Origin: Daejeonella lutea | Lineage (GTDB): Bacteria; Bacteroidota; Bacteroidia; Sphingobacteriales; Sphingobacteriaceae | NCBI RefSeq assembly: GCF_900168015.1 | Contig: NZ_FUYR01000001.1 | Location: 1,920,943-1,984,942 of the forward strand | Length of the DNA: 64,000 nucleotides | Direction: 5' to 3' | Shown here: piece after piece, positions 932-62,441 of the stretch | Numbering within the stretch: the first letter of the stretch is position 1 | Layout: every line of letters begins with the position of its first letter | The notes under the pieces: generated by a model | Databases searched by the model: none | The model's input: only the letters and a program-made list of their open reading frames with translations | Told to the model about the DNA's origin: nothing | Position numbers and translations under genes: made by a program

Positions 932-962
932 GGACGGAGAGCGCTCCACCCAAACTGCACAT

Positions 963-1018
963 TGTCAATTGTCAATTGTCAACTGTCAACTGTCAACTGT
1001 CAAATGTCCATTGTCTAT
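963..1018. repeat. Heptad array, 8 units (TGTCAAY)
   Basis: Eight uninterrupted 7-bp units in perfect register. Units 1-2 read TGTCAAT, units 3-5 TGTCAAC, then TGTCAAA, TGTCCAT and TGTCTAT, with divergence rising toward the right end. The last unit ends on the first base of the dctA stop codon (1018-1020). Read in the dctA sense, the unit is RTTGACA, the same word as the array after acnA at 33265. Only one arm is present here. Confidence 0.9.
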
Positions 1019-2292
1019 TACCCTTCGCTAACCAGATCGGCTGTTCTGGGATCGGTTGCACGCTTATAAGCCTCCTGGTCAAACTCCCTCTCGCTTTTAG
1101 CGATAACTATCGCTGCCACACCATTCCCGATCAGGTTGGTTATGGCTCGTGCTTCAGACATAAACCTGTCGACACCCAGCAATATCGCAATACTTTCAAT
1201 TGGTATTACTTTCAAAGCAGTAAGAGTGGATGCCAGTACAATAAATCCGCTGCCCGTAACTCCCGCAGCACCTTTCGACGTGATCATTAGAACCCCAATG
1301 ATAGTCAGCTGCTGGCTAAGGGTCAGATTGATATTGAATACCTGCGAAAGGAAAATTACCGCCATCGACAAATAGATCGATGTACCGTCCAGGTTAAACG
1401 AATATCCCGTCGGAATAACCAAGCCAACGACCGGCTTGGAACAGCCAAATTTCTCCATCTTCTGCATCATGCTGGGGAGGGCAGACTCTGATGATGACGT
1501 CCCCAGAACGATTACAATCTCCTGTCTTATAAATTTGAGGTATTTCCAAAGACTGAATTTGAACATGTATGCGATGACGTTCAGAACACCAAAAATGAAC
1601 AGGATCATTGTCATGTAAACTGAAACCATCAATTTGCCTAAAGGATAAAGTGTCTCAATTCCATAAGTTCCAATAGTGTACGCCATCCCCCCGAAAGCAC
1701 CAAAGGGTGCCAACTTCATGATCATTTTCATGATATTAAAAATGACTTGAGAGAGCTTCTCGAACGTATTGATCAATGATGTACCGGTAGAACCCATGCG
1801 GCTCAGTGCAAAGCCAAAGAGTACTGCAAAGAAAAGGATCTGCAGGATATCACCTTTTGCAAAAGAGTCAAAAATATTCTTGGGAACAATGTGGGCGACG
1901 AACTCCAGCCAATTCATCTCAGACGCACCTTCCTGAAAGGGTTGAATTTTAGAAATATCAGGATGAGTAGACCGTATGTCGACTCCCTTACCCGGCTGAA
2001 AGATGTTAGCGACCAACAGCCCGATCACAATAGCAAGCGTTGTGATGATTTCAAAATATAAAAGCGCCTTACCTCCAACACGGCCAACTTTTTTCATATC
2101 GCCCATCTGCGCGATGCCAAGCACAATCGTAAAGAAAATGATCGGCGCGATTAGCATGCTGATCATATTGATAAAGGTCTGGCTGATGAGTTTTGCCGTT
2201 GGGGCAAATCCTGAGAAATTTAATCCCACCAGAACTCCAATAACTATTGCAACAAGTACCTGAAAGGTTAGATGGGTGATTACACGCTTCAT
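1018..2292 (-). CDS. dctA: C4-dicarboxylate:cation symporter DctA
   Basis: Inner-membrane symporter of the DAACS (glutamate/dicarboxylate) family that imports succinate, fumarate and malate with cations. The 424-residue length is normal. The serine-rich re-entrant loop reads TSSSESALP (about 265-273). The second signature GYSFNLDGTSIY (about 296-307) and the C-terminal SKGAAGVTGSGF and DRFMSEARAITNLIGNG follow the DctA branch rather than GltP. Start chosen at the ATG encoding MKRVITHLTF, directly before the first membrane helix. It lies next to sucD, the TCA enzyme that generates succinate, but sucD has its own promoter. Repeat arrays flank both ends. Confidence 0.93.
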   Translation of the reverse strand: MKRVITHLTFQVLVAIVIGVLVGLNFSGFAPTAKLISQTFINMISMLIAPIIFFTIVLGIAQMGDMKKVGRVGGKALLYFEIITTLAIVIGLLVANIFQPGKGVDIRSTHPDISKIQPFQEGASEMNWLEFVAHIVPKNIFDSFAKGDILQILFFAVLFGFALSRMGSTGTSLINTFEKLSQVIFNIMKMIMKLAPFGAFGGMAYTIGTYGIETLYPLGKLMVSVYMTMILFIFGVLNVIAYMFKFSLWKYLKFIRQEIVIVLGTSSSESALPSMMQKMEKFGCSKPVVGLVIPTGYSFNLDGTSIYLSMAVIFLSQVFNINLTLSQQLTIIGVLMITSKGAAGVTGSGFIVLASTLTALKVIPIESIAILLGVDRFMSEARAITNLIGNGVAAIVIAKSEREFDQEAYKRATDPRTADLVSEG

Positions 2293-2313: not shown

Positions 2314-2415
2314 TTATACGTTGTACGTGATAGGGTTTACGTTTTACGTTACTAAACGCTGAGTTAGGCGCCTGACTATCCGTCGAGACGTAAAACGTAA
2401 AACGCCGAACCTATC
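2314..2415. repeat. Paired heptad arrays with core (TTnTACG / ACGTAAA)
   Basis: The left arm is six 7-bp units (2314-2355), including TTATACG, TTGTACG, GTTTACG and TTTTACG. The right arm (2388-2415) has ACGTAAA twice, then ACGCCGA and ACCTATC. The arms are inverted relative to each other: GTGATAGG at 2327-2334 matches CCTATCAC at 2410-2417. The loop carries CTAAACGCTGAG (2352-2363), a core shared with three other arrays. The right arm runs into the stop codon of the ABC transporter gene (2414-2416). Confidence 0.88.
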
Positions 2416-4183
2416 ACTCCTCGCGGGCTATTCCTTCAGAATTAAATTGCAGATCATATAGGCGCTTATAGTAACCATCAATCTTCAAGAGTTGCTGATG
2501 TGAACCCATTTCCTTAATTTCCCCATGATCTAGGACAATTATCCTGTCAGCATTCTGGATAGTGGATAAACGATGCGCGATAACGATTGAGGTGCGACCC
2601 TCCATCAGTTTAGTGATCGCATTTTGTATCAGTTCTTCCGTTTCAGTATCAACAGATGCTGTTGCTTCGTCGAGGACAAGTATTTTCGGATTGTATACCA
2701 TTGCTCTGATAAAGGAAATCAATTGCGCCTGCCCAACAGAAAGAGTAGCACCGCGTTCCATTACGTCGTAATCAAAACCTCCGGGAAGACGCCGGATAAA
2801 TTCTTCAGCACCCACTTCCCGCGCTGCAGCCGTAAGTTGCTCCCTCGTGATCTTTTTGTTATTGAGATTTATGTTATTTGCAATAGTGTCTGAAAATAAA
2901 AAGACATCCTGCAGGACAGTAGCTATGTGTGAACGAAGGTAACTCAACTCAAAATCTTGGATATCGATTCCATCAATTTTAACTGACCCTCGATTTATCT
3001 CGTAAAATCTATTGAGAATATTGATGGTAGATGATTTCCCGGCACCGGTTGCACCTACCAGGGCAAGTGTTTCACCGGGTTTTACATGAAATGATATATC
3101 CCGTAATACCCAATTTTCGTCGTTGTAGGCAAACCAAACGTTTTTAAATTCAATATCACCTTTTAGATTCTCGGGTCTTTGCTTTCCTTTATCCTCTGTC
3201 CGCTCCTGAGTATCTAAAACACTAAATATCCTTTCGGCACCTACCATTCCCATTTGAAGCGTATTGAATTTATCTGCAAGCTCTCTAATCGGGCGAAACA
3301 GCATATTGATAAACATAATAAATGAAACAACAACTCCGGGAGTGATCCTGTCGGCAAGGATTGACTCAGAACCCCACCAGACAAGCAGCCCTAATGACAT
3401 TGCGGAAATGATCTCGACGACTGGAAAAAAAATAGAGTAATACCAGTTAGATCGTATATGTGCATCCCGGTGCTTCGCATTAATGCGCTTGAATTTTCGA
3501 ATTTCCTGGTTCTCCCGGGCAAAATACTGAATAATCTTGATGCCGGTAATATGCTCTTGCAGGAATGTATTAAGATTAGAAACCTGCGTTCGTACTTCCT
3601 GAAAAGCAGATTTAATTGCCTCTTTAAACACGTATGAAGCAACTATCAGGAAGGGCATCGGAATTAATACCACCAGCGTAAGCTCCCAATCGGTATATAG
3701 CATTACTGCAATAATGGCCACGACCTGGAGTATGTCACCAATAATGACAATAAGACCTTCTGAGAAGATATCGGCTATCGTTTCCAGATCAGAGACCGTC
3801 CGGGTGATAAGCTGTCCTATGGGTGTACGGTCGAAATATTTTAGTCTAAGGCTGGTAATATGGTTAAAAACACTTATCCGAAGGTCTTTTATGACTGACT
3901 GGCCAAGAATGTTAGTATAAAAAGTATGGAAATATTGTACGAGCGTCTGCACAAGTAATACACTGATCATTATAAGGGTCATATTTAAGAGCCCTGCCCC
4001 GTTACTTTCCACGATGTATTTATCCAGGGTCAACTGAATTAACCAGGGCCTGATTGGTGCTAAGCCGGCAAGTATAACCGTGAGTAATATTGACCAGACA
4101 AAAATTTTCCTATAGGGTTTTACATAATGAAAAATCCTTTTAAGAAGACTTATATCAACCGCTTTTCCGCTAACTTTTGCCAT
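2414..4183 (-). CDS. ABC exporter, fused permease-ATPase (MsbA/Sav1866 type)
   Basis: Half-transporter of 589 residues that should dimerise to move a lipid, drug or other hydrophobic substrate outward across the inner membrane. Residues 1-310 are the six-helix exporter domain, and 340-589 the ATPase. Visible motifs: Walker A GATGAGKS (377-384), Q-loop Gln 425, signature LSVGQ (481-485), Walker B ILVLDE (501-506) and switch His 537. The signature departs from the usual LSGGQ at its third position. The start overlaps the end of truA by 14 bases, so the two are probably co-transcribed. The substrate cannot be told from sequence. Confidence 0.9.
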   Translation of the reverse strand: MAKVSGKAVDISLLKRIFHYVKPYRKIFVWSILLTVILAGLAPIRPWLIQLTLDKYIVESNGAGLLNMTLIMISVLLVQTLVQYFHTFYTNILGQSVIKDLRISVFNHITSLRLKYFDRTPIGQLITRTVSDLETIADIFSEGLIVIIGDILQVVAIIAVMLYTDWELTLVVLIPMPFLIVASYVFKEAIKSAFQEVRTQVSNLNTFLQEHITGIKIIQYFARENQEIRKFKRINAKHRDAHIRSNWYYSIFFPVVEIISAMSLGLLVWWGSESILADRITPGVVVSFIMFINMLFRPIRELADKFNTLQMGMVGAERIFSVLDTQERTEDKGKQRPENLKGDIEFKNVWFAYNDENWVLRDISFHVKPGETLALVGATGAGKSSTINILNRFYEINRGSVKIDGIDIQDFELSYLRSHIATVLQDVFLFSDTIANNINLNNKKITREQLTAAAREVGAEEFIRRLPGGFDYDVMERGATLSVGQAQLISFIRAMVYNPKILVLDEATASVDTETEELIQNAITKLMEGRTSIVIAHRLSTIQNADRIIVLDHGEIKEMGSHQQLLKIDGYYKRLYDLQFNSEGIAREE

Positions 4184-25122: not shown

Positions 25123-25143
25123 TTTGAAGAATTAAAGGTTTTA

Positions 25144-25238
25144 AGCTGTCAGTTATCAGGCTTACCGGAAACTAAATGATAGAATCAAATCTATCCGATT
25201 AAACTGACAGCTGATAACTGTTACCTGATAACTTTCTA
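25144..25238. repeat. Paired heptad arrays (AGTTATC / CTGATAA)
   Basis: The right arm is five 7-bp units (25204-25238): CTGACAG, CTGATAA, CTGTTAC, CTGATAA, CTTTCTA. Its last unit ends exactly on the stop codon of the minus-strand gene at 25236. The left arm (25144-25164) carries the inverted words AGCTGTC and AGTTATC. The loop holds GATAG and CTATC, which can pair. It lies between two convergent genes, beyond a separate strong terminator. Confidence 0.82.
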
Positions 25239-30998: not shown

Positions 30999-33266
30999 AT
31001 GGCATTTGATTTAGACATGATCAAAAAGGTTTATGACAACTACGGTATCCGTCTTGAGGCTGCCCGCAAAGTTGTTAATAAGCCCCTTACATTAACAGAG
31101 AAAATTTTATATGCCCACTTGTGGCAGGGAAATGCTTCAGAAGCTCACGAACGCGGAGTTACGTACGTAGATTTTGCACCTGATCGCGTAGCAATGCAGG
31201 ATGCGACAGCTCAAATGGCCTTATTGCAATTTATGCAAGCGGGAAGACCTACCGTGGCAGTTCCATCAACCGTGCACTGTGATCACCTCATCCAGGCTAA
31301 AGTTGGCGCAGATGAAGATTTGGCTACAGCAAACACTCAAAATAAAGAAGTTTACGATTTTCTAGCTTCTGTTTCAAATAAATACGGTATTGGTTTCTGG
31401 AAACCGGGAGCTGGTATTATCCATCAGGTTGTTTTGGAAAATTATGCATTTCCTGGCGGGATGATGATCGGTACGGATTCTCACACCCCGAATGCTGGTG
31501 GGTTGGGGATGATAGCAATTGGTGTTGGCGGTGCTGACGCATGTGATGTAATGGCCGGACTTGCCTGGGAACTAAAATTCCCTAAACTTATTGGAGTAAA
31601 ACTTACTGGCAAATTGTCGGGATGGGCATCTGCAAAAGATGTTATTCTCAAAGTTGCTGGTATCCTCACTGTTAAAGGTGGTACAGGACATATCGTCGAG
31701 TACTTTGGCGAAGGTGCGCAATCACTTTCCGCTACAGGAAAAGGAACAATATGTAATATGGGTGCTGAAATCGGTGCTACTACTTCAGTTTTCGGTTACG
31801 ATGAGAAGATAGCTACTTATTTAAAAGGTACCGAGCGCGAAGAAATAGCAAACCTGGCTGATGCTGTTAAGGAGCATCTTACTGGTGACGATGAAGTATA
31901 TGCGAATCCTGCTCTTTATTTCGATCAGGTTATTGAGATTGACCTCTCCACACTCGAGCCACACGTTAACGGGCCTTTCACTCCGGATATGGCATGGCCA
32001 TTATCACAGTTTGCTACTGCAGTTCGCGAGAACGGCTGGCCTCAGGAACTTGAAGTTGGTTTGATAGGTTCTTGTACCAATTCATCATACGAAGATATTA
32101 GCCGGGCTGCCTCTATTGCTCAGCAGGCTGTCGATAAACATTTAGTGGCGAAAGCGGAGTTTACGATAACTCCTGGTTCCGAATTGGTTCGTTACACCGT
32201 TGAGCGCGACGGCTACCTGAATACATTCGAGAATATGGGCGGAGTGGTACTTGCTAATGCATGTGGCCCGTGTATCGGACAATGGGCCCGCCACAGTACC
32301 GATCCAACGCGCAAAAACTCCATCATCACTTCATTTAACAGGAACTTCAAATCACGTAACGACGGTAATCCGAATACACATGCATTTGTAGCTTCTCCGG
32401 AAGTAGTTACTGCATTGACAATTGCGGGTGATCTAGGATTTAATCCTATGACCGATACGCTGACGAATTCGGAAGGCCAGCAGGTTAAACTTGATGAGCC
32501 TCAGGGATTGGAAATGCCTTTGAAAGGCTTTGCAGTTGAAGATGCAGGTTATCAGGCGCCAGCAGAAGACGGAACTAAAGTAAGTGTAATTGTAGATCCA
32601 AAATCCGCAAGACTTCAATTGCTTGATCCATTCAAAGCATGGGAAGGTACTGACATAAAAGGCTTGAAACTGTTGATTAAAGCTAAAGGTAAATGTACAA
32701 CGGATCATATTTCTATGGCTGGCCCATGGCTGAAATTCCGCGGACACCTGGACAATATTTCAAATAACATGCTGATTGGTGCAACCAATTTCTTTAACGA
32801 GAAAGCTGACAATGTTAAAAACCAGCTGAACGGTGAATATGGGGCCGTACCGGCTACAGCTCGTGCCTACAAAGCAGCTGGCATCGGAAGTATCGTGGTT
32901 GGTGACGAAAACTACGGGGAAGGATCTTCAAGAGAACACGCTGCGATGGAGCCAAGGCACCTGGCTGTTCGTGCCATCCTGGTAAAGTCATTCGCACGTA
33001 TACACGAAACCAATCTTAAAAAACAAGGAATGCTTGCATTAACTTTCTCTGATGCTAATGATTATGACCGCATCCTTGAAAATGACACAATTGACATCAC
33101 AGGACTTAGCGACTTTGCTCCCGGGAAGCCGTTAGCTATCGTTCTCCACCACGAAGATGGCAATTCTGAGTCGTTCCCTGTTAATCATACGTATAATGAG
33201 CAGCAGATTGAATGGTTCAAAGCCGGTGGTGCATTGAATATTATCAGAATGAACCAAAAAACCTAG
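30999..33266 (+). CDS. acnA: Aconitate hydratase
   Basis: Interconverts citrate and isocitrate in the TCA cycle with a 4Fe-4S cluster. The 755-residue length and sequence are of the mitochondrial-aconitase type. Seen are [28 protein letters not shown], the cluster Cys in [10 protein letters not shown] and [10 protein letters not shown], and the swivel-domain active-site loop [15 protein letters not shown]. Aconitases of this type are named acnA or acnB variously in Bacteroidota, so the symbol is by function. It is monocistronic: a 7-bp repeat array begins in its stop codon and a strong terminator follows. Confidence 0.96.
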
Positions 33267-33299
33267 TTGACAGTTGACAGGTAACAGTTGACAGTGTCA
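33265..33299. repeat. Heptad array after acnA (AGTTGAC), with core at 33308
   Basis: Five units: AGTTGAC, AGTTGAC, AGGTAAC, AGTTGAC, AGTGTCA. The first starts at the second base of the acnA stop codon (33264-33266). Eight bases after the array comes CTGAACGCTGTGTG (33308-33321), the core also present at 2352, 44740 and (opposite strand) 51295. No inverted right arm follows; instead the acnA terminator begins at 33335. Confidence 0.85.
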
Positions 33300-33334
33300 A
33301 ACGATACCTGAACGCTGTGTGAATAGCATCGAAC

Positions 33335-33381
33335 AAAGCCGTATTCTAAAAGCATAATGCCCAGGAATACGGCTTTTTTTT
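33335..33381 (+). terminator. Rho-independent terminator of acnA
   Basis: AAAGCCGTATTC (33335-33346) pairs with GAATACGGCTTT (33365-33376) over an 18-base loop and runs into eight or more T. Confidence 0.9.
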
Positions 33382-33404
33382 AACAGATTTTAAACTCAGT
33401 AAAA

Positions 33405-34271
33405 ATGTTCAAAGTAATTCTTGTTACCGGAGCTTCGACCGGGATTGGTTTTGAAAGCGTCCTGCTTCTTGCTAAAGAGGGGCATAAGGTTTATGCTACG
33501 ATGCGCGACACTTCTAAAGCTGGAAAGCTTGAATCAGAAGCAGCAAAAAGAGCGATCGAGATTAATATCCTTAATCTGGACGTCCAGGATGAAAAAAGTA
33601 TTGCCTCTTGTGTGAATACTATTTTCGAAAAGGAAGGAAGGCTTGATATACTCGTAAATAATGCGGGAGCAGGCTTCATAAGAACCATGGAGCAGGCGAC
33701 GATGGAAGAGATCCAGCAAGTCATGGACGTGAATTTCTATGGTGTGATTCGCTGTACTAAGGCTGTCTTGCCTATTATGCGCAATCAACAAAGCGGGCAC
33801 ATCATAAATATTTCTTCGGTCGGCGGACTCGTTGGGCAACCGGTAAACGAGATTTATTGCGCAGCTAAATTTGCGTTAGAGGGTTTGACAGAAAGCATCG
33901 CAACTTACATGAAACCCTATTTCGGGATTAATGTCTCGCTAGTTGAGCCCGGCGGTGTAATAACGGAATTTGGCAATAGCCTAACCAGATACTTTGAGGA
34001 AACAGGCGGCATAAAAGATGATGATTACAAGCCATTGATCCAAACCTACATGGATTACAGAGCTACATTTACCGATGAAGTAAAAGAACGTGTTTTCCAA
34101 AAGCCTGCACAAATCGCAGAAGTGATCCTAAAGTGCATCAATGATCCCGAACCAAAGCTACGCTACCTTAGTTCTGACGGGGCAGCTTCTTTTACAAAAT
34201 TAAAGTCTGGACTGGATCCGGACGGAGAGGGTATAAAAGCACAGGTTAGGAAAGGCATCCTCAACAAGTAG
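33405..34271 (+). CDS. SDR-family oxidoreductase
   Basis: Classical short-chain dehydrogenase of 288 residues. The cofactor loop TGASTGIG is at 8-15, the structural NNAG at about 86-89, the catalytic Ser in NISSVGG, and the YxxxK pair in IYCAAKFALEG. Asp or basic residues that would settle NAD versus NADP are not decisive (YATMRDTSKAGKL suggests NADP). The substrate is unknown. It lies between two terminated units and seems to be transcribed alone. Confidence 0.9.
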   Translation: MFKVILVTGASTGIGFESVLLLAKEGHKVYATMRDTSKAGKLESEAAKRAIEINILNLDVQDEKSIASCVNTIFEKEGRLDILVNNAGAGFIRTMEQATMEEIQQVMDVNFYGVIRCTKAVLPIMRNQQSGHIINISSVGGLVGQPVNEIYCAAKFALEGLTESIATYMKPYFGINVSLVEPGGVITEFGNSLTRYFEETGGIKDDDYKPLIQTYMDYRATFTDEVKERVFQKPAQIAEVILKCINDPEPKLRYLSSDGAASFTKLKSGLDPDGEGIKAQVRKGILNK

Positions 34272-37187: not shown

Positions 37188-37715
37188 TTACTTCGATTTT
37201 TGAGACAATCTTGTCGTGCTTTTCCCGGCTGCTTTGGTTGCTTTTGGCTTTTCCTTTGCAACTGGCTCTGGCTTCTTAACCGCTTCCGACAAAGCAGGTG
37301 CACCAGCGCCCTCTGCCAGAGGCTCCGGAGCAGCTTCAGTAAATAATGGAAGGACACTTATGGTGTTATACCAGCTAATGATTTTTTTAATATCTGAAGA
37401 ATACACCCGCTCTTCATCATGATCTGGAGCAACATCACTAAAAAATTCCCGAAGAGTTTTTCCATCTGCTGATTTAGGGTCAGGGATGTTTTTGCTCGCT
37501 TTAATTTGCTCAAAGATATCACTCAATTTCAAATCGCCGCTCTCGCCGAAAACAGTAATGTCTTCCAAAGAGGCCATTTTTGCAGTGCTGATATTAACCA
37601 CAATCTTATTTTTTTGTTCGTCCAGTGTCTCCAGGATAAAGCCTGATTTGTTCTGTCCGATCAGCTTAAACAAGCCAGGTTTACCTGATACGGATACAAG
37701 TCCTCTTAGATTCAT
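37188..37715 (-). CDS. DUF5606 family protein
   Basis: 175 residues. The first 130 match DUF5606, a Bacteroidota family of unknown function: MNLRGLVSVSGKPGLFKLI, then a segment with ISTAKMASLEDITVF and SSDIKKIISWYNTI. The last 45 are low-complexity Ala/Pro/Lys, ending in a basic tail (KEKPKATKAAGKSTTRLSQ) that could bind nucleic acid. It lies between a terminator and a repeat-filled gap, downstream of ppiB on the same strand. Confidence 0.85.
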   Translation of the reverse strand: MNLRGLVSVSGKPGLFKLIGQNKSGFILETLDEQKNKIVVNISTAKMASLEDITVFGESGDLKLSDIFEQIKASKNIPDPKSADGKTLREFFSDVAPDHDEERVYSSDIKKIISWYNTISVLPLFTEAAPEPLAEGAGAPALSEAVKKPEPVAKEKPKATKAAGKSTTRLSQKSK

Positions 37716-37721
37716 TTTAAT

Positions 37722-37749
37722 TAGTATTTAGTATTGAGTATCAAGTATA
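37722..37749. repeat. Heptad array (TAGTATT) upstream of DUF5606
   Basis: Four units: TAGTATT, TAGTATT, GAGTATC, AAGTATA. It lies 7 bases before the DUF5606 start. Looser related words (TGATAGC, AGATACC at 37834-37847) lie at the far side of the gap, next to the ppiB stop. A near palindrome around CTGCCGGCAG (37809-37832) sits between them. Confidence 0.7.
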
Positions 37750-37855
37750 AAGACAAATCCCAATTACCCGATACGTATATTCTTAACAATTTGCTTCCAG
37801 TCGTGATAGCCTGACTGCCGGCAGACAGGCTCATACCTGATAGCAGATACCTAGC

Positions 37856-38293
37856 CTATTCTTCCGTTACCTCTATCCCCAGGATCTTATCACCTTGACG
37901 GATATCATCTACAACATCAACATTTTCAATAACCTTACCAAAACAAGTATGGTTGCGGTCAAGATGTGAAGTATTATTCCTGCTATGGCAGATGAAAAAC
38001 TGAGAACCACCTGTATTACGACCAGCGTGAGCCATAGAAAGTACTCCCCGATCGTGATACTGATTATCGCCTGTAAGCTCACAATCAATCTGGTATCCCG
38101 GTCCACCAGCACCTGTTCCTGTCGGGTCACCACCCTGGATCACGAAATCATTTATCACACGGTGGAATGTTACTCCATCATAATAACCTTCTTTAGCTAA
38201 TTTCAGAAAATTTGCAACTGTGTTAGGCGCATCTTTATCGTAAAACTGCACAGTCATGTCACCTTTCTCGGTTTTTATAATTGCTTTGCTCAT
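37856..38293 (-). CDS. ppiB: Cyclophilin-type peptidyl-prolyl isomerase
   Basis: 145-residue cytoplasmic cyclophilin with no signal peptide. Catalytic and binding residues are in VTFHRVINDFVIQGGDPTG (Arg, Phe, Gln) and GSQFFICHS. The His in HLDRNHTCFGKV replaces the Trp found in eukaryotic enzymes. It accelerates proline isomerisation during folding. Confidence 0.94.
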   Translation of the reverse strand: MSKAIIKTEKGDMTVQFYDKDAPNTVANFLKLAKEGYYDGVTFHRVINDFVIQGGDPTGTGAGGPGYQIDCELTGDNQYHDRGVLSMAHAGRNTGGSQFFICHSRNNTSHLDRNHTCFGKVIENVDVVDDIRQGDKILGIEVTEE

Positions 38294-43632: not shown

Positions 43633-43802
43633 CACTTTTGAATTCAACCAGATATTTAGGATATTTCACTACTTTGAAATAAAAAAAACTATCAAGAGAC
43701 TTTATGATTTTGCCAGCCCATATAAGCAGCTGGATTTAAATCATGATAACCCTGCTTAGCAACAGGAAGTTTAAAGTCCTTAAAAATAAACTATATAAAC
43801 AG

Positions 43803-44714
43803 ATGAAAATTTCTATTGCAATTGCCTGCATTCTTGTCACCAGCTTAACTCTAACAGCTCAAGTAAAAACTGATCGTAAATTAAAAGTGAAACTGGAGGA
43901 GCTGGTAAAGGGATTTCAGGGTGATGTAGGGATCTATGTTCAGAATTTAAAAACCGGCCGGATCGCCGAAATCAATGCTGATACGATCTTCCCAACAGCC
44001 AGCATGATAAAGGTTCCCATTATGTGCGGTGTATTCGATAAAATAGAAAAAGGTAAGCTTAAATACGATGAAAACCTCATATATAAAGATAGTTTGTTAT
44101 ATGCTGGTGAAGATATTCTCGGGTCGTTTAAAGACGGGGAAAAGATTAAGCTTGGTAAAGTTCAAATGCTAAGTATTACCACAAGTGACAACACTGCAAG
44201 CTTATGGCTTCAAAAATTTGTTGGGGGTGAAAATATAAATAAGTGGCTTGATGCGAACGGCTTTAAAAGCACCCGTATGAATTCCCGTACAGCTGGCAGA
44301 CAGGGCGACTGGCGTAAATATGGCTGGGGCCAAACAACTCCTCGTGAAATGGCTACTCTGGTTAAAATGATTCATGAGGGCAAAGCAGTCAGCCCGGCTG
44401 CAAGCGAAAGAATGTATAGGAACATGATTCGCATATATTGGGATGCGGAAGCATTATCCCAAATCCCGCCATATGTTCAGGCGGCATCCAAACAAGGAGC
44501 TGTAGATCGTTCCCGCTCGGAAGTGGTACTCGTAAATGCTCCACATGGTGACTATGTATTTTGTATAACCACCAAAAATCAAAAAGATACCAGCTGGACA
44601 CCGGACAACGAAGGCTATCGCCTCATCCGGGGGCTTTCCAGGTTGCTTTGGAACTACTATGAGCCGAAATCTGAATGGAAACCTGCTCCGGGCGTGGAAA
44701 AATACGTTGAATAA
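43803..44714 (+). CDS. Class A beta-lactamase-like serine hydrolase
   Basis: 303 residues from the ATG at 43803, which begins a normal signal peptide (MKISIAIACILVTSLTLTAQ). An in-frame ATG at 43743 adds 20 basic residues before it and seems less likely. The active-site SxxK reads SMIK (TASMIKVPIMCG), and the second motif SDN is in TTSDNTASLWL. The third motif, normally KTG or KSG, reads KQG (AASKQGAVDR). It may be a periplasmic beta-lactamase or a related peptidase/esterase; the KQG favours the latter. Paired repeat arrays start one base after its stop. Confidence 0.85.
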   Translation: MKISIAIACILVTSLTLTAQVKTDRKLKVKLEELVKGFQGDVGIYVQNLKTGRIAEINADTIFPTASMIKVPIMCGVFDKIEKGKLKYDENLIYKDSLLYAGEDILGSFKDGEKIKLGKVQMLSITTSDNTASLWLQKFVGGENINKWLDANGFKSTRMNSRTAGRQGDWRKYGWGQTTPREMATLVKMIHEGKAVSPAASERMYRNMIRIYWDAEALSQIPPYVQAASKQGAVDRSRSEVVLVNAPHGDYVFCITTKNQKDTSWTPDNEGYRLIRGLSRLLWNYYEPKSEWKPAPGVEKYVE

Positions 44715-44715
44715 G

Positions 44716-44869
44716 TAACACGTTGTAAGTTATACGTTTCTTAAACGCTGTGCTACCGGTGGTCGCTAACTCTTTGCTCTATATGCGCTAACACGTGAAT
44801 GTATAGCTTATAACTACTATACGCTAGCACGGGGACGTAAAACGTATAACGTACAACTTATAACTTTCC
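44716..44869. repeat. Paired heptad arrays with core (TTATACG / ACGTATA)
   Basis: The left arm is TAACACG, TTGTAAG, TTATACG, TTTCTTA (44716-44743). The core CTTAAACGCTGTG is at 44740-44752. The right arm is ACGTAAA, ACGTATA, ACGTACA, ACTTATA, ACTTTCC (44835-44869). The 85-base middle has further partial words (GCTAACACG, ATACGCTAGCACG). The left arm starts one base after a stop codon, and the right arm runs into the pruA promoter. Confidence 0.88.
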
Positions 44870-44871
44870 CT

Positions 44872-44879
44872 TACCTTTG
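44872..44879 (+). promoter_or_regulatory. -7 promoter element of pruA
   Basis: TACCTTTG matches TAnnTTTG and lies 21 bases before the ATG. The region where a -33 box is expected (about 44849-44853) is inside a 7-bp repeat unit and carries no TTG. Confidence 0.65.
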
Positions 44880-44900
44880 CAGTAACTAACACAACCAATT

Positions 44901-46535
44901 ATGTTAAAAGGATTTTTCAACGTGCCGGAACCGGTAAACGAGACTGTATTAAATTATGCTCCTGGAAGTAGAGAACGGAAACAGCTAAAAGAGGCTATTC
45001 TGGAAGCACGGTCAAAAGTTATTGATATACCGATGGTGATAGGCGGCAAAGAAGTAACTACAAGCAAAAAAGAAAGTATTCATCCGCCACATGATCATAA
45101 GCATATCCTTGCTAATTATTCTCAGGGTGAAAAAAAACATGTTACTGATGCGATAAACTCCGCTCTGAAAGCTAAATCTAACTGGGAAGAACTAGCCTGG
45201 GAACAACGCGCTGCCATATTTTTGAAAGCTGCAGATCTGATTGCGGGCCCCTATCGTTATAAACTTAACGCGGCGACGATGCTCGGGCAGTCGAAAAACG
45301 CCTATCAGGCAGAAATAGATTCTGCCTGCGAACTTATAGATTTCCTTCGGTTCAATGTAAAGTATATGACCGATATCTATAAACAACAACCTCCCGTTTC
45401 ACCTCGCGGCGTATGGAATAGGCTCGAACAAAGGCCATTGGAAGGATTTGTGTTTGCCTTAACACCGTTCAATTTTACAGCAATTGCCGGAAACCTGCCA
45501 ACTTCTGCCGCAATGATGGGCAATGTTGTAGTTTGGAAGCCAGCAAATACCCAGATCTATTCTGCCAATGTATTAATGGAGATCTTCCGCGAGGCAGGAC
45601 TACCTGACGGAGTTATAAACCTCGTATATGTTTCCGGACCAGATGCCGGTGAAGTGATTTTTAATCATCCTGATTTCGCTGGTATTCATTTTACGGGTTC
45701 CACTGGGGTGTTCCAGGACATCTGGAAAACAATCGGTAATAACATTCACAAATACAAAACCTACCCGCGTATTGTCGGAGAAACAGGTGGCAAAGATTTT
45801 ATTCTGGTTCATGGCTCAGCAGACGTAAATGCAGCAAGTACGGCCATTGTCCGTGGTGCATTCGAATACCAGGGCCAAAAATGCTCAGCAGCATCGAGAG
45901 TATATGTAGCGTCGTCGGTTTGGCCTGCTATAAAGGAACGCGTCCTTGCCGATCTGGCAAATATAAAAATGGGACCAGTTGAGGATTTCGCCAACTTCGT
46001 AAATGCAGTTATTGATGAAAAATCATTCGATAAGTTGGCTAAATATATTGATGCTGCGAAGAAGGACAAAAGTCTTGAAATAATAGCTGGCGGAAATTAC
46101 GACAAATCTAAAGGCTACTTTATAGAACCCACTATCATCCTAACAAAAGACCCGAACTATATCACCATGTGCGAAGAGCTTTTCGGACCAGTTCTGACAA
46201 TTTTCGTTTTTGCCGACAAGGATTTTGAAAAGACTCTTGAACTTGTTGATAATACATCTATTTATGCGCTTACGGGGGCCGTTATTGCCCAGGATCGCTA
46301 TGCAATAGCCACTGCAACAAATGCCCTGAGAAACGCAGCTGGAAATTTCTATATAAACGACAAGTGCACAGGTGCTGTCGTTGGACAACAGCCTTTCGGA
46401 GGTGCCAGAGGATCAGGTACAAATGACAAGGCAGGTTCGATGATAAATCTTCTACGTTGGGCCTCTCCAAGAGCGATAAAGGAAACGTTTGATCCACCAA
46501 CCGAATACGGGTACCCGTTTTTAGAAAAGGAATAG
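44901..46535 (+). CDS. pruA: L-glutamate gamma-semialdehyde dehydrogenase
   Basis: 544 residues of the eukaryote-like ALDH4 group. It oxidises the product of proline dehydrogenase to glutamate with NAD+. FALTPFNFTAIAGNLPTSAA, the NAD-binding HFTGSTGVFQDIWK, the Glu region VGETGGKDF and the catalytic Cys in YQGQKCSAASRVYV are all intact. Proline dehydrogenase is not fused and not adjacent. Confidence 0.96.
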   Translation: MLKGFFNVPEPVNETVLNYAPGSRERKQLKEAILEARSKVIDIPMVIGGKEVTTSKKESIHPPHDHKHILANYSQGEKKHVTDAINSALKAKSNWEELAWEQRAAIFLKAADLIAGPYRYKLNAATMLGQSKNAYQAEIDSACELIDFLRFNVKYMTDIYKQQPPVSPRGVWNRLEQRPLEGFVFALTPFNFTAIAGNLPTSAAMMGNVVVWKPANTQIYSANVLMEIFREAGLPDGVINLVYVSGPDAGEVIFNHPDFAGIHFTGSTGVFQDIWKTIGNNIHKYKTYPRIVGETGGKDFILVHGSADVNAASTAIVRGAFEYQGQKCSAASRVYVASSVWPAIKERVLADLANIKMGPVEDFANFVNAVIDEKSFDKLAKYIDAAKKDKSLEIIAGGNYDKSKGYFIEPTIILTKDPNYITMCEELFGPVLTIFVFADKDFEKTLELVDNTSIYALTGAVIAQDRYAIATATNALRNAAGNFYINDKCTGAVVGQQPFGGARGSGTNDKAGSMINLLRWASPRAIKETFDPPTEYGYPFLEKE

Positions 46536-49706: not shown

Positions 49707-51248
49707 GTGGACAAGAAGATAGAAACTCTACAGAATAAACAGAGAGAAGCCCTGCTTGGAGGAGGAGAAGCCAGAATTGACAGCCAGCATAAAAAAGGCA
49801 AGCTTACTGCGAGGGAGCGGCTTCACTTTCTATTGGATGAAAACTCATTTGAAGAAATAGGCATGCTGGTCACACACAGGTCTACCGACTTTGGGATGGA
49901 AAAAGAAAAATATCCTGGTGACGGGGTAGTTACTGGCTATGGAACGATCAACGGACGCCTGGTATATGTATTTTCTCAGGACTTTACGGTTTTTGGGGGA
50001 TCCTTATCGGAAACTCATGCTGAAAAGATCTGCAAAATTATGGATCTGGCGCTTAAAAATGGCGCACCTGTAATTGGTTTAAATGATTCTGGTGGGGCAA
50101 GGATACAGGAAGGCGTGGTTTCACTTGGTGGATATGCTGATATATTCTATAGAAACACCATGGCTTCGGGTGTTATTCCGCAGATATCAGCGATCATGGG
50201 TCCATGTGCGGGTGGCGCAGTGTATTCCCCGGCTATAACTGATTTTGTATTAATGGTCGAAAACACATCGTATATGTTCGTAACGGGGCCGAATGTGGTT
50301 AAGACCGTGACACATGAAATAGTAAGTTCAGAGGAACTTGGGGGTGCGAGTGCACATTCTACCAAATCTGGTGTTACACATTTTGCTTGCGCGAACGAAA
50401 TAGAAGCCATAAACCATGTCAAACAATTGCTGAGCTATATGCCACAGAATTGTGAAGAAAACACTCCTGCTATTGTCTACGATCCCACGGATGAACACAG
50501 GCCTCACTTAAACGAAATCATTCCGGATAATAATTCTCAGCCATACGACATTCGTGAGGTTATTGCGGAAATTGCCGATGAAAATACATTCCTGGAGGTT
50601 CACAAAGATTTCGCTGAAAATATAGTGGTAGGTTTTGCACGCCTGGCTGGACGAAGCATTGGTATCGTAGCCAATCAACCCGCTTTTCTGGCTGGTGTTC
50701 TTGATATACATTCTTCAGTTAAAGGAGCACGATTTGTGCGTTTTTGCGATAGTTTCAACATTCCGTTACTTGTACTTGAAGATGTTCCTGGATTTCTTCC
50801 AGGAACGGATCAGGAGTGGAATGCCATTATAACTAATGGCGCCAAATTGCTTTATGCATTTTGTGAGGCGACAGTCCCCAGGATAACAGTCATAACACGA
50901 AAAGCTTACGGTGGTGCTTATGATGTTATGAATTCCAAACATATTGGAGCGGATATGAATTATGCCTGGCCTAGCGCAGAAATTGCGGTTATGGGTGCAA
51001 AAGGGGCCGCTGAAATCATCTTCAAGCGAGATATAACTGCTGCAGAAGATCCAAACGCTCGCTGGCTGGAAAAAGAAAAAGAATATTCAGATATTTTTGC
51101 GAACCCATACCGGGCCGCTGAACGTGGGTTTATTGACGAAGTGATTGAACCAGCTGACACCAGAAAGAAGCTGATAAGGGCTTTCAAGATGCTTGAGAAT
51201 AAAGTGGTTAACAATCCAAGGAAGAAGCACGGCAATATACCGTTGTAA
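49707..51248 (+). CDS. Acyl-CoA carboxylase beta subunit (carboxyltransferase)
   Basis: 513 residues, with a GTG start ([16 protein letters not shown] is the normal beginning of the family). It transfers CO2 from carboxybiotin to propionyl-CoA or a similar acyl-CoA. Crotonase-fold oxyanion loops are [12 protein letters not shown] (N half) and [15 protein letters not shown] (C half). The biotin carboxylase and biotin carrier genes are not in the window, so the complex is assembled from genes elsewhere. A repeat array is in register with its stop codon. Confidence 0.93.
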
Positions 51249-51337
51249 GTTTTACGTAGGACGTTATACGTAGTACGTTCTACGTGAAACTCGTACACAG
51301 CGTTTAAGTACTTATAACGTATTACGTACAACGTATA
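51242..51337. repeat. Paired heptad arrays with core (GTnnTAC / ACGTAnn)
   Basis: The left arm is seven units in register (51242-51290): GTTGTAA, GTTTTAC, GTAGGAC, GTTATAC, GTAGTAC, GTTCTAC, GTGAAAC. The first contains the stop codon of the carboxylase gene (51246-51248). The right arm (51310-51337) is ACTTATA, ACGTATT, ACGTACA, ACGTATA, the inverse of the left. The loop carries the core on the minus strand (ACACAGCGTTTAAG at 51295-51308). This is the cleanest example in the window. Confidence 0.92.
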
Positions 51338-51343
51338 CCTCTG

Positions 51344-51751
51344 ATGAGCCATATCGAACAAATCCCCTCCTACCTTACATGGAAGATTCGTCATAAGGTA
51401 ATGTACCCAGATCTAAATTTTGAGAAGGTGATCCTGCCCAATGATGATGATGGTATACATTTTGGCTTATTTGATCACAATACATTAATTAGTGTGGTTT
51501 CACTGTTCAAAACTGTAAAATCCATGCAATTCAGAAAATTCGCTACACTATCAGAGCATCAGGGGAAAGGTTATGGCGCGGAGCTATTGAATTACCTCTT
51601 GGAGTTTGCTAAAGCTGAGGGGTGCGATCATATTTGGTGCAATGCCCGACAGAAAGCTTCCGGATTTTATAGTAAATTCGGCTTTTCTGAAACCAATAAA
51701 ACTTCAAGCGCTAACGGTCACGATTATGTGATCATGGAAAGACTATTATAA
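51344..51751 (+). CDS. GNAT-family N-acetyltransferase
   Basis: 135 residues with the acetyl-CoA binding motif A in LSEHQGKGYGAELLNYLLEFA (Q/G-x-x-G-x-G/A) and motif B in SGFYSKFGFSE. Substrate unknown. It follows the repeat array by 6 bases, so any leader must lie in the array, and it precedes the M42 peptidase gene by only 7 bases. Confidence 0.9.
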   Translation: MSHIEQIPSYLTWKIRHKVMYPDLNFEKVILPNDDDGIHFGLFDHNTLISVVSLFKTVKSMQFRKFATLSEHQGKGYGAELLNYLLEFAKAEGCDHIWCNARQKASGFYSKFGFSETNKTSSANGHDYVIMERLL

Positions 51752-60644: not shown

Positions 60645-60774
60645 ATTCGAGATCCGAGAGGCGAGAAAACAGACTTTTGTCTTAATCTTACCTAAATCTC
60701 TTCATGTTAACTAGTTACGAAATGAGTTACAAGATTCTTTTCTCGAATCTCGTAGCTCGCTTCTCGTATCTTAC
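60645..60774. repeat. Paired heptad arrays (ATTCGAG / TTCTCGA) between rpoA and rpsD
   Basis: The left arm is ATTCGAG, ATCCGAG, AGGCGAG (60645-60665). The right arm is TTCTCGA, ATCTCGT, AGCTCGC, TTCTCGT, ATCTTAC (60740-60774), the inverse. The last unit overlaps the rpsD stop codon (60771-60773). In the operon mRNA the arms would pair into a long imperfect hairpin between two essential genes. Confidence 0.85.
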
Positions 60775-61843: not shown

Positions 61844-61974
61844 GTGAGATTTGAGAAGTGAGACTTGTCCCGATCCTAATCGGGACGGCACTCATATCTA
61901 TTTCTTTTTAATAATCATGAGCTGAGCATCTTCGATATTCTCATATCTCCAATCTCATATCTCATATCTAATTA
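61844..61974. repeat. Paired heptad arrays (GTGAGAT / CTCATAT) between rpsK and rpsM
   Basis: The left arm is GTGAGAT, TTGAGAA, GTGAGAC, TTGTCCC (61844-61871). The right arm is CTCATAT, CTCCAAT, CTCATAT, CTCATAT, CTAATTA (61940-61974), ending one base before the rpsM stop codon. The middle has a perfect 8-bp hairpin, GTCCCGAT-CCTA-ATCGGGAC (61867-61886). Confidence 0.87.
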
Positions 61975-62352
61975 CTATTTAGTTGCTTTTTTCTTGTTAG
62001 CTACAGTCTTACGTTTTCCTTTACGGGTACGTGAGTTGTTTTTCGTACGTTGTCCGCGAACAGGTAATCCCTTACGGTGACGTAATCCACGGTAACAACC
62101 GATATCCATCAAACGCTTGATGTTCAACTGTACTTCGGAGCGTAGAGCACCTTCAACCTTGATCTCATCATTGATGAAACCACGAATTGATGCTAACTGA
62201 TCATCAGACCAATCCTGCACCTTGACGTTAACGTCAATACCAGCATCTTTCAGAATCCGCTGAGCGGTAGACTTCCCGATACCGTAAATGTAAGTAAGAC
62301 CGATCTCTCCTCTTTTGTTTCTTGGTAAATCAATACCTGCTATCCTTGCCAT
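61975..62352 (-). CDS. rpsM: Ribosomal protein S13
   Basis: 125 residues. [26 protein letters not shown] and the tail [27 protein letters not shown] are typical. It sits in the head of the small subunit and contacts P-site tRNA and L5. Repeat arrays flank it on both sides. Confidence 0.99.
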
Positions 62353-62371
62353 ATATTATTGAAGTTGTGTG

Positions 62372-62441
62372 TTGTAAGTCGTAAGTTGTAAGTCGCAAGT
62401 CGGAGACTTATAACTTATTACTTAAAACCTATAACTATTAA
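62372..62441. repeat. Ten uninterrupted heptads (TTGTAAG to CTTATAA) between rpsM and rpmJ
   Basis: Ten 7-bp units in one register: TTGTAAG, TCGTAAG, TTGTAAG, TCGCAAG, TCGGAGA, then CTTATAA, CTTATTA, CTTAAAA, CCTATAA, CTATTAA. The first five and last five are approximate inverses, so the array is a hairpin with no loop. It ends 2 bases before the rpmJ stop codon (62444-62446) and fills nearly the whole gap. Confidence 0.9.

Follow-up and report, generated by a model that had tools for sequence, protein, structure and literature searches.

Intergenic tandem repeats with a unit of seven nucleotides are known in bacteria and are left unexplained in the accounts cited here, as far as those go (PMC4692102, PMC6344855, PMC4679880). 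In the SPADE report, tandem heptamers were the most abundant intergenic repeats, and the cited part of it offers no clear clue to their function (PMC6344855). The GGGANTN repeats of Xanthomonas and Nostoc (Rehm et al. 2015) are described, in the sections cited, as having a mode of four units and as forming convergent pairs, 70 in Xcc and 75 in Xac; they are intergenic, nearer to the 5' neighbouring ORF and rare between divergent ORFs, and quadruplexes are discussed for them (PMC4692102). Direct repeats of the heptamer TAACTGA have been reported from Beggiatoaceae, Cyanobacteria and some Bacteroidetes (MacGregor 2015, PMC4679880, in the part cited). Finally, the cited portions of two papers on template switching report that this process homogenises the arms of inverted repeats and inverts their spacers (PMC8604942), and that it creates and maintains RNA hairpins (PMC8794818).

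In this study, we analysed a stretch of 64,000 nucleotides (hereafter the window) from the genome of Daejeonella lutea (4.03 Mb in 10 contigs, referred to as G000), together with related genomes including that of Daejeonella sp. JGW-45 (G003), a near relative of the same genus. The arrays of the window share the properties of the Xanthomonas-type intergenic heptamers, namely a 7-nt period, a mode of four units, convergent pairs and an intergenic position near stop codons.

The shared core and its heptad arms

The core consists of two half-cores, A (CTAAACGCTGTG) and B (CTGGGCGGATA), and the four cores of the window were found where the original prediction had placed them (Table 1). Alignment of the sites on the core revealed a symmetric element: heptad words, then CTAAACGCTGTGYTATCCGYCCAGACG, and then heptad words on the opposite strand. 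In the window, AACGCTGTG had three matches against 0.21 expected, and none of 100 shuffles reached three. With the window alone, the four matches of AACGCTGNG (equalled by 6 of 100 shuffles) and the 16 matches of CTNAACGCTGTG with up to two mismatches (equalled by 18 of 100) were not significant. Genome-wide in G000, AACGCTGTG was found 42 times compared with 9 for the reversed control, and CTAAACGCTGTG 17 times compared with none; half-core B, searched as TATCCGCCCAG on the other strand, was matched exactly 23 times across G000 and G003 combined, and its reversed control twice.

Table 1. Arms, half-cores and arrays located in the window.
Feature	Position	Strand	Remark
TTGTCAA-word array	948..1025		without core
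Left arm of TACG element	2327..2354	+	between two minus-strand genes
Half-core A, CTAAACGCTGAG	2352..2363	+	
Right arm of TACG element	2390..2417	-	same element as 2327..2354
GTTATCA-word arm	25132..25159	+	between convergent genes; partner at 25211-25238
GTTGACA-word array	33261..33300	+	begins at stop codon of aconitase gene
Half-core A, CTGAACGCTGTG	33308..33319	+	beside GTTGACA word
GTATTRA-word arm	37713..37758	+	in G003, same word type with half-core B (TATCCGCCCAG)
Left heptad arm, AAGTAACACGTTGTAAGTTATACGTTTC	44713..44740	+	overlaps stop codon of upstream gene 43743-44714
Half-core A, TTAAACGCTGTG	44741..44752	+	the noted site
Right inverted TACG arm	44839..44866	-	AAAACGTATAACGTACAACTTATAACTT on + strand
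Left TACG arm	51247..51274	+	overlaps stop codon of carboxyltransferase-like gene
Half-core A, TTAAACGCTGTG	51296..51307	-	
Right TACG arm	51307..51334	-	
GANNCGA-word arm	60649..60676	+	rpsD-rpoA gap; relatives with an array have GANNTGA
Opposite GANNCGA arm	60731..60758	-	rpsD-rpoA element
GANNTGA-word arm	61935..61987	-	rpsM-rpsK gap
TAAGTNN-word arm	62371..62398	+	rpmJ (named by eye)-rpsM gap; without core
Opposite TAAGTNN arm	62401..62428	-	rpmJ-rpsM element

A 7-periodic array, called when its lag-7 score was 14 or more out of 21, lay within 60 bp of 19 of the 42 AACGCTGTG sites in G000, and the same test with lags of 5, 6, 8, 9 and 10 was positive at 0, 0, 0, 0 and 2 sites, respectively. 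The association was closest for sites immediately preceded by CTA, 13 of 17 being near an array compared with 6 of the remaining 25. The lag-7 score was reached at 2.4% of random window positions and at 12.3% of random intergenic positions; the core is therefore enriched near heptad arrays, rather than being as frequent elsewhere in the genome, the outcome that would have told against the original prediction.

Within the fetched loci, half-core A (up to one mismatch) abutted an array at 37 of 58 sites, a proportion that is not genome-wide because the loci were picked by the core or by TACG arrays, and that includes two sites where the abutting array is the near arm of the preceding tandem unit. 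Its word partners were GTTNTAC, GTTNTAA, GTTGANA, GTCNGAR and GTAATCA, among others. Half-core B abutted an array at 15 of 23 sites, beside GTTNTAC, GTTATAA, GTATCAA/G and GTTGNCA-type words. Together, the half-cores adjoined arrays of at least six word families, in most cases at a distance of 0-2 bases.

The full core, TAAACGCTN{7,9}CGNCCAG, was found in 4 of 20 genomes of the genus, four times in G000 and seven times in G003; G010 and G019 have one match each, the same sequence in both, and it looks unrelated; the form of the core in G007, noticed at rpmJ-rpsM only, was missed by this pattern. Outside G000 and G003, exact CTAAACGCTGTG was near chance (19 matches in 17 genomes against 13 for the reversed control, in 60 genomes with our own included). 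The core (CTAAACGCTGTG ... TATCCGCCCAG) is one spacer module common to many, not all, elements of two sister species. We also considered the core as a directional RNA element, since by eye the half-cores could form a stem of about seven positions, three of them G-U pairs, closing a loop of about ten, on one strand only. At tandem loci, the core was oriented against transcription 12 times and along it 7 times (5 vs 0 in G003, 7 vs 7 in G000; genes called as the longest open frames), and the idea was dropped as orientation showed no clear bias.

The words of the arms have roughly five fixed and two free positions, for example TACGT+NN or GA+NN+TGA; in the TACG word, five positions are near fixed, one of them being C or A, and two are free. 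With one mismatch allowed, TACGTNNTACGTNNTACGT had at least 174 matches in G000 and at least 290 in G003, overlapping matches inside one array being counted separately, and the reversed control had none in either. Of 20 loci fetched for TACG arrays, 13 carried an inward-facing pair, five a single array and two overlapping arrays of both senses. Paired TACG elements, searched for with interiors of up to 600 bp, had interiors of 12 to 483 bp. A half-core (up to two mismatches) stood beside an arm in 20 of 30 paired TACG elements of the fetched loci: A in 15, B in 15, both in 10 and neither in 10. Most chains of TACGT/TAAGT words consisted of four words, as did 34 of 57 chains in G000 and 15 of 20 chains in G003, where only chains of at least three words were counted and the loci had partly been picked for such chains. 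By eye, the outer ends of TACG elements were recurrently AGTT...AACT. Across a sample of 201 genomes from the order, our own included, four-word TACG arrays occurred in 12.

The period of seven was specific among arrays, which numbered 7 in G000, 9 in G003 and 8 in G001 (1, 0 and 1 in G005, G013 and G016), compared with 0-1 at each of the lags 5, 6, 8 and 9 in the same genomes. Convergent inverted pairs in the window numbered 7 at lag 7 and 0, 0, 0, 0 and 2 at lags 5, 6, 8, 9 and 10. For such pairs the preference for lag 7 does not extend to every relative: G001 had six at lag 7 (one AT-rich, two overlapping) and 3, 2, 5, 4 and 1 at lags 5, 6, 8, 9 and 10, and G005, G013 and G016 had none at lag 7 and 0-4 at other lags. 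We read the elements as convergent arrays of about four heptads per arm around an exchangeable spacer; the four-word convergent architecture is established for the TACG family.

Several further repeats were seen by eye. Small palindromes (CCCGATAGCTATCGGG, CCTGCC..GGCAGG, GGCTTCGCCC and TCCCGAT..ATCGGGA) lie inside or between heptad arms at L045, L050, L065, L015, L069 and L077 and in the rpsM-rpsK gaps of L149-L165, and look like further exchangeable spacer modules. Some cores (L010, L012, L017, L038) are flanked by looser repeats of the CGCAGAG/CACAGAG type with a spacing of about 9-11 rather than 7. With respect to the surroundings of the noted site, the gene upstream of it (43743-44714) resembles class A beta-lactamase families (E 1e-26, below the curated cut-offs) and may be another serine hydrolase. 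A search with Rfam at the gathering score found no known structured RNA within the window.

Orthologous sites and gene ends

To compare relatives, gaps between orthologous genes were matched by synteny; G005 and G013 contributed few comparable gaps. The gap at 33266-33405 has GTTGACA words with half-core A in G000, GGAAATT arms in G003, and neither in G001. At 37715-37856, GTATTRA-type words are found in G000 and G003, in the latter with half-core B, and GAGATGT/GAGATAT in G001 and G016. At 51248-51344, TACG arms are present in both G000 and G003 with different free positions, and the gap is 8 bp long in G001. In the gap of the noted site (44714-44901), the place of the element is taken in G003 by two small open frames, the gap of G001 is free of arrays, and that of G016 is 1431 bp long, seen in part. 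By eye, the two frames of G003 (L135/L136) read like a toxin-antitoxin pair of the MazEF/PemK type. At another orthologous site, with orthology taken from flanking matches, the spacer is inverted between G000 (L031) and G003 (L048). Thus, at the same intergenic site, sister species may carry a different word, a different or inverted spacer, or nothing.

The ribosomal alpha operon was compared over 19 genomes of the genus, the words being identified by eye. In the rpmJ-rpsM gap, G003 and G007 have core-bearing TACG arms, G000, G010, G011, G018, G017 and G002 have TAAG words around a short spacer, and G012, G008 and G019 have degenerate or GTTGACA words; eight genomes have no clear heptads. Between G017 and G002, the arms at this site differ by indels in multiples of a heptad (by eye). 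At rpsD-rpoA, GANNTGA words are present in 10 of 19 genomes (degenerate in G011 and G017), eight have no array, and G000 alone has GANNCGA, with each word altered in both arms. A tree of four genes, in which three outgroup genomes are represented by pruA only and G018 is incomplete, joins G000 and G003 as sisters with a support of 100 and places G007 in another clade; the distribution of array states is therefore incongruent with the gene tree. At rpsM-rpsK (19 genomes, L149-L167), two alternative left halves, the rpsM stop codon included, are distributed against the species tree and split the sister pairs G000/G003, G008/G012 and G010/G019, which suggests exchange between species.

These comparisons show that sites are kept while the word or the spacer is replaced between species. 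The idea of a constant centre with variable arms was borne out: the same half-cores stand beside several words, and word, spacer or spacer orientation differs at orthologous sites. The proposal that arrays lacking the core may be decayed copies fared less well, as these are not clearly the product of decay: the core-less array at 62371-62428 occupies the site of a full core-bearing element in a sister species.

G003 has local tandem amplifications of arm-plus-core units of about 62 bp x4 and about 99 bp x3 (L051, L052), and in G002 a 217-bp ACTAATT/ACTAACT heptad array, unlike the usual four units, lies beside pruA (L110:3320-3536).

The elements are often found at stop codons, and several overlap one. 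Among window gaps of at least 80 bp, an element was present in 9 of 22 tandem or convergent gaps and in none of six divergent ones (p=0.14); the genes were listed by hand from open frames, and the count omits gaps shorter than 80 bp and the array at 948-1025, to the left of which no gene was listed. Core loci of G000 and G003 were convergent in ten cases and divergent in two (p=0.04). On both counts, avoidance of divergent gaps is weak. At 33266, the array follows the stop codon and precedes a distinct hairpin that has a T-run and resembles a terminator (by eye). Because of this separate hairpin, and because an element within the ribosomal operon would need read-through, the elements are not simply terminators.

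A convergent TACG element was also found in the 23S-5S rRNA spacer at three contig ends of G000 (L229, L230 and L231 on C1, C5 and C9). The copies are 98.7-100% identical over 300-372 bp, and Rfam matched 5S rRNA at all three ends and 23S rRNA at one. Given this location, the TACG hairpin there is very likely part of a transcript. The rRNA operon probably breaks the assembly at these points.

As predicted by folding, a hairpin with z <= -2 is present at rpmJ-rpsM in 15 of 19 genomes, including six of the eight without clear heptads, at rpsM-rpsK in 13 of 15 gaps of foldable length, and at rpsD-rpoA in 14 genomes of 19. Since the rpsK-rpsD gap, which has no heptads, attains the same threshold equally often (14 of 19), hairpins are common in such gaps; moreover, dinucleotide shuffles destroy periodicity, so that the low z of inverted arrays is partly trivial and overstates the case. 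With this in mind, the predicted hairpin seems to be what persists at these sites.

How the arrays may arise

The explanation that we tentatively prefer, while holding it somewhat short of probable, is that the elements are transcribed, REP-like gene-end hairpins in which slippage and template switching make the arms uniform on the spot, and between which spacers and arms are exchanged. They would act as imperfect RNA hairpins, like REP/BIME at the ends of genes. Replication slippage in steps of seven and template switching inside the hairpin would copy words from arm to arm, and as a result both arms would retain one word; template switching would sometimes invert the spacer as well. Microhomology in the core or in the arms may let spacers and arms pass between elements or species. 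As long as mismatches keep to a single phase of the 7-nt repeat, pairing would be unaffected in every register, and this would explain why the free positions persist. The step from known template switching to the 7-nt period is one that we infer.

The relation between the two arms of an element bears on this directly. In register, the free positions were not identical above chance (26 of 111 against an expected fraction of 0.212, p=0.28, in 30 elements; 23 of 103, p=0.36, in the 28-element set), and arms as in-register inverted copies, or as stems with compensatory free positions, were rejected on these figures. The two arms of an element nevertheless had more free-position variants in common than under permutation (Jaccard 0.522 vs 0.441, p=0.0005). 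Four offsets between the arms were tried. Shifting by one word raised identity (49 of 178, p=0.02), and shifts of two words (18 of 121) and of three (10 of 61) gave less than the expected 0.21-0.23. Inside the arms, adjacent words were no more alike than shuffled ones; words two apart were more alike in G000 (23 of 60, 11.1 expected) and not significantly so in G003 (5 of 17, 3.6 expected). This pattern, taken with the lack of near-identical copies at unrelated places among the compared loci and of a Y1_Tnp match, fits local out-of-register copying better than transposition.

A doubtful variant of this reading is a population of hairpins that evolves by shuffling of arms and spacers without a transposase, the period of seven with two free positions preserving pairing in any register. 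Replication stalled at a hairpin would switch to the other arm of the same hairpin or, via microhomology, to another one; the microhomology would lie in the core or in the heptad phase, and the arms would be rewritten with a new word while the gene-end hairpin stays.

We consider it unlikely that the elements are miniature transposons, with the four-heptad arms as terminal inverted repeats, the core as a subterminal sequence and a non-RAYT transposase acting in trans. Such an origin would suit the narrow arm length, the recurrent AGTT...AACT ends (by eye), the presence of one spacer at dispersed loci, and presence or absence between species. It agrees poorly with the free positions of the two arms, which, in contrast to the ends of an ordinary miniature transposon, do not repeat each other in register, and with the same spacer being joined to different arm words. 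Near-identical dispersed copies with conserved terminal repeats, a trait of MITEs, were also absent when 40 fetched loci and the window were compared (E 1e-12, at least 50 bp; rows pairing L092 with L201 were set aside, as these two stretches overlap or are neighbours on one contig). The best matches between distinct G000 loci ranged from about 81% over 110 bp to 88% over 52 bp. Recent copy-paste was thus rejected for the compared loci, the identical TACG pairs at the three contig ends being copies of the rRNA operon and not dispersed elements. Element-free relatives are too diverged in the gap (by eye) for a target duplication to be visible, so no empty site was close enough to reveal one.

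The original prediction had likened the elements to mobile ones served by a REP-associated tyrosine transposase (RAYT). A search of G000 for PF01797 (Y1_Tnp), which was positive in 5 of 14 control genomes, gave no match, and together with the lack of young dispersed copies among the compared loci it speaks against that view; an origin from RAYT or IS200/IS605 was rejected on this search, which covered the Y1_Tnp family only, and it likewise counts against miniature transposons. The core alignments contain no constant GTAG, the tag of RAYT-mobilised REPs, the ends being AGTT...AACT (by eye). Nor do the elements show the CGTC tag, 8-9 bp stem and 4-5 nt loop by which CGTC-tagged REPs are defined in the cited part of PMC3733652: the letters preceding CTGGGCGGATA vary with the arm word, and the half-cores differ in stem and loop (by eye, as above).

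Tandem sites bound by a family of DNA- or RNA-binding proteins, with five specified positions in each heptad, would show what is seen in both arms at many loci, namely five nearly invariant letters per word and two that vary freely. We find this rather improbable, as many unrelated words coexist in one genome and sister species have different words at a given site, so that a single protein could not serve all of them. Neutral heptamer microsatellites, formed by polymerase slippage and flanked by the core as an old repeat by chance, are distinctly improbable. Indels in heptad multiples between close species (by eye) and the over-representation of heptamers in many bacteria (PMC4692102, PMC6344855, in the parts cited) would be expected from slippage, but convergent arms of narrow length, a core strongly tied to arrays, and adjacent words that are not more alike than shuffled ones, words two apart being so in G000, would not.

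An enzyme that writes words by adding heptads, such as a reverse transcriptase carrying a short internal template, a change of which would change the word, seems very improbable; it would account for arrays that are short, uniform in word and variable at fixed phases, and nothing else favours it. G-quadruplexes, the proposal made for the GGGAATC heptamers of Xanthomonas and Nostoc, are scarcely credible here: unit length, four-unit mode and convergent pairs are the same as in the cited sections of PMC4692102, but TACGTNN, GANNTGA, GTTATCA and GTATTRA have no G-tracts, and a four-unit convergent layout in such words, as in the TACG family, argues against quadruplexes as its general reason. Quadruplexes also could not account for the many coexisting words, the change of word at a site, or a spacer core used with different words.

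Relation to described repeats

The gene-end sites can be traced over 19 genomes, through which the predicted hairpin mostly persists while the word, the spacer or the whole array turns over, and the hairpin/core layout gives a long-unexplained bacterial repeat a testable architecture. The occurrence of this layout without G-tracts also removes the quadruplex as a general explanation. If in-place rewriting is true, a genome-wide repeat puzzle would be tied to template switching at hairpins; if shuffling without a transposase is true, it would provide a general explanation for the widespread heptamer arrays of bacteria. The literature searched in PMC, in the parts covered, contains no report of a change of word at an orthologous site or of one spacer used across words.

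With template switching at quasi-palindromes, the elements have in common the homogenisation of arms and the inversion of spacers, both of which are seen here in outline (PMC8794818, PMC8604942); that is a process rather than a family of elements, and heptad arrays are not mentioned in the portions of those papers cited. REP, BIME and REPIN sequences, as presented in the cited part of PMC3733652, are similar in being short, palindromic, intergenic, located downstream of genes in tandem or convergent gaps, and plausibly transcribed. Unlike them and their RAYT, our elements come with no Y1_Tnp match and no conserved GTAG or CGTC tag, and have heptad arms of changeable word.

The TAACTGA repeats resemble the present arrays more closely, being intergenic heptamer arrays with indels in heptad multiples and with presence or absence among close relatives; GTTATCA, which is present here, is the TAACTGA word on the other strand. 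They differ in being described as direct repeats, for which a role in translation is proposed and which in one species mostly precede start codons closely, and the cited part of that paper (PMC4679880) describes neither convergent core-bearing hairpins nor a change of word at orthologous sites. With the GGGANTN repeats, as the cited sections of PMC4692102 describe them, our elements share a 7-nt unit with degenerate positions, the four-unit mode, convergent pairs, an intergenic position nearer to the 5' neighbouring ORF, rarity between divergent ORFs, and sites that are common to different species and vary in sequence. They are set apart from these repeats by the many G-tract-free words found in one genome, by the change of word at the same site between sister species, and by a spacer core common to different words.
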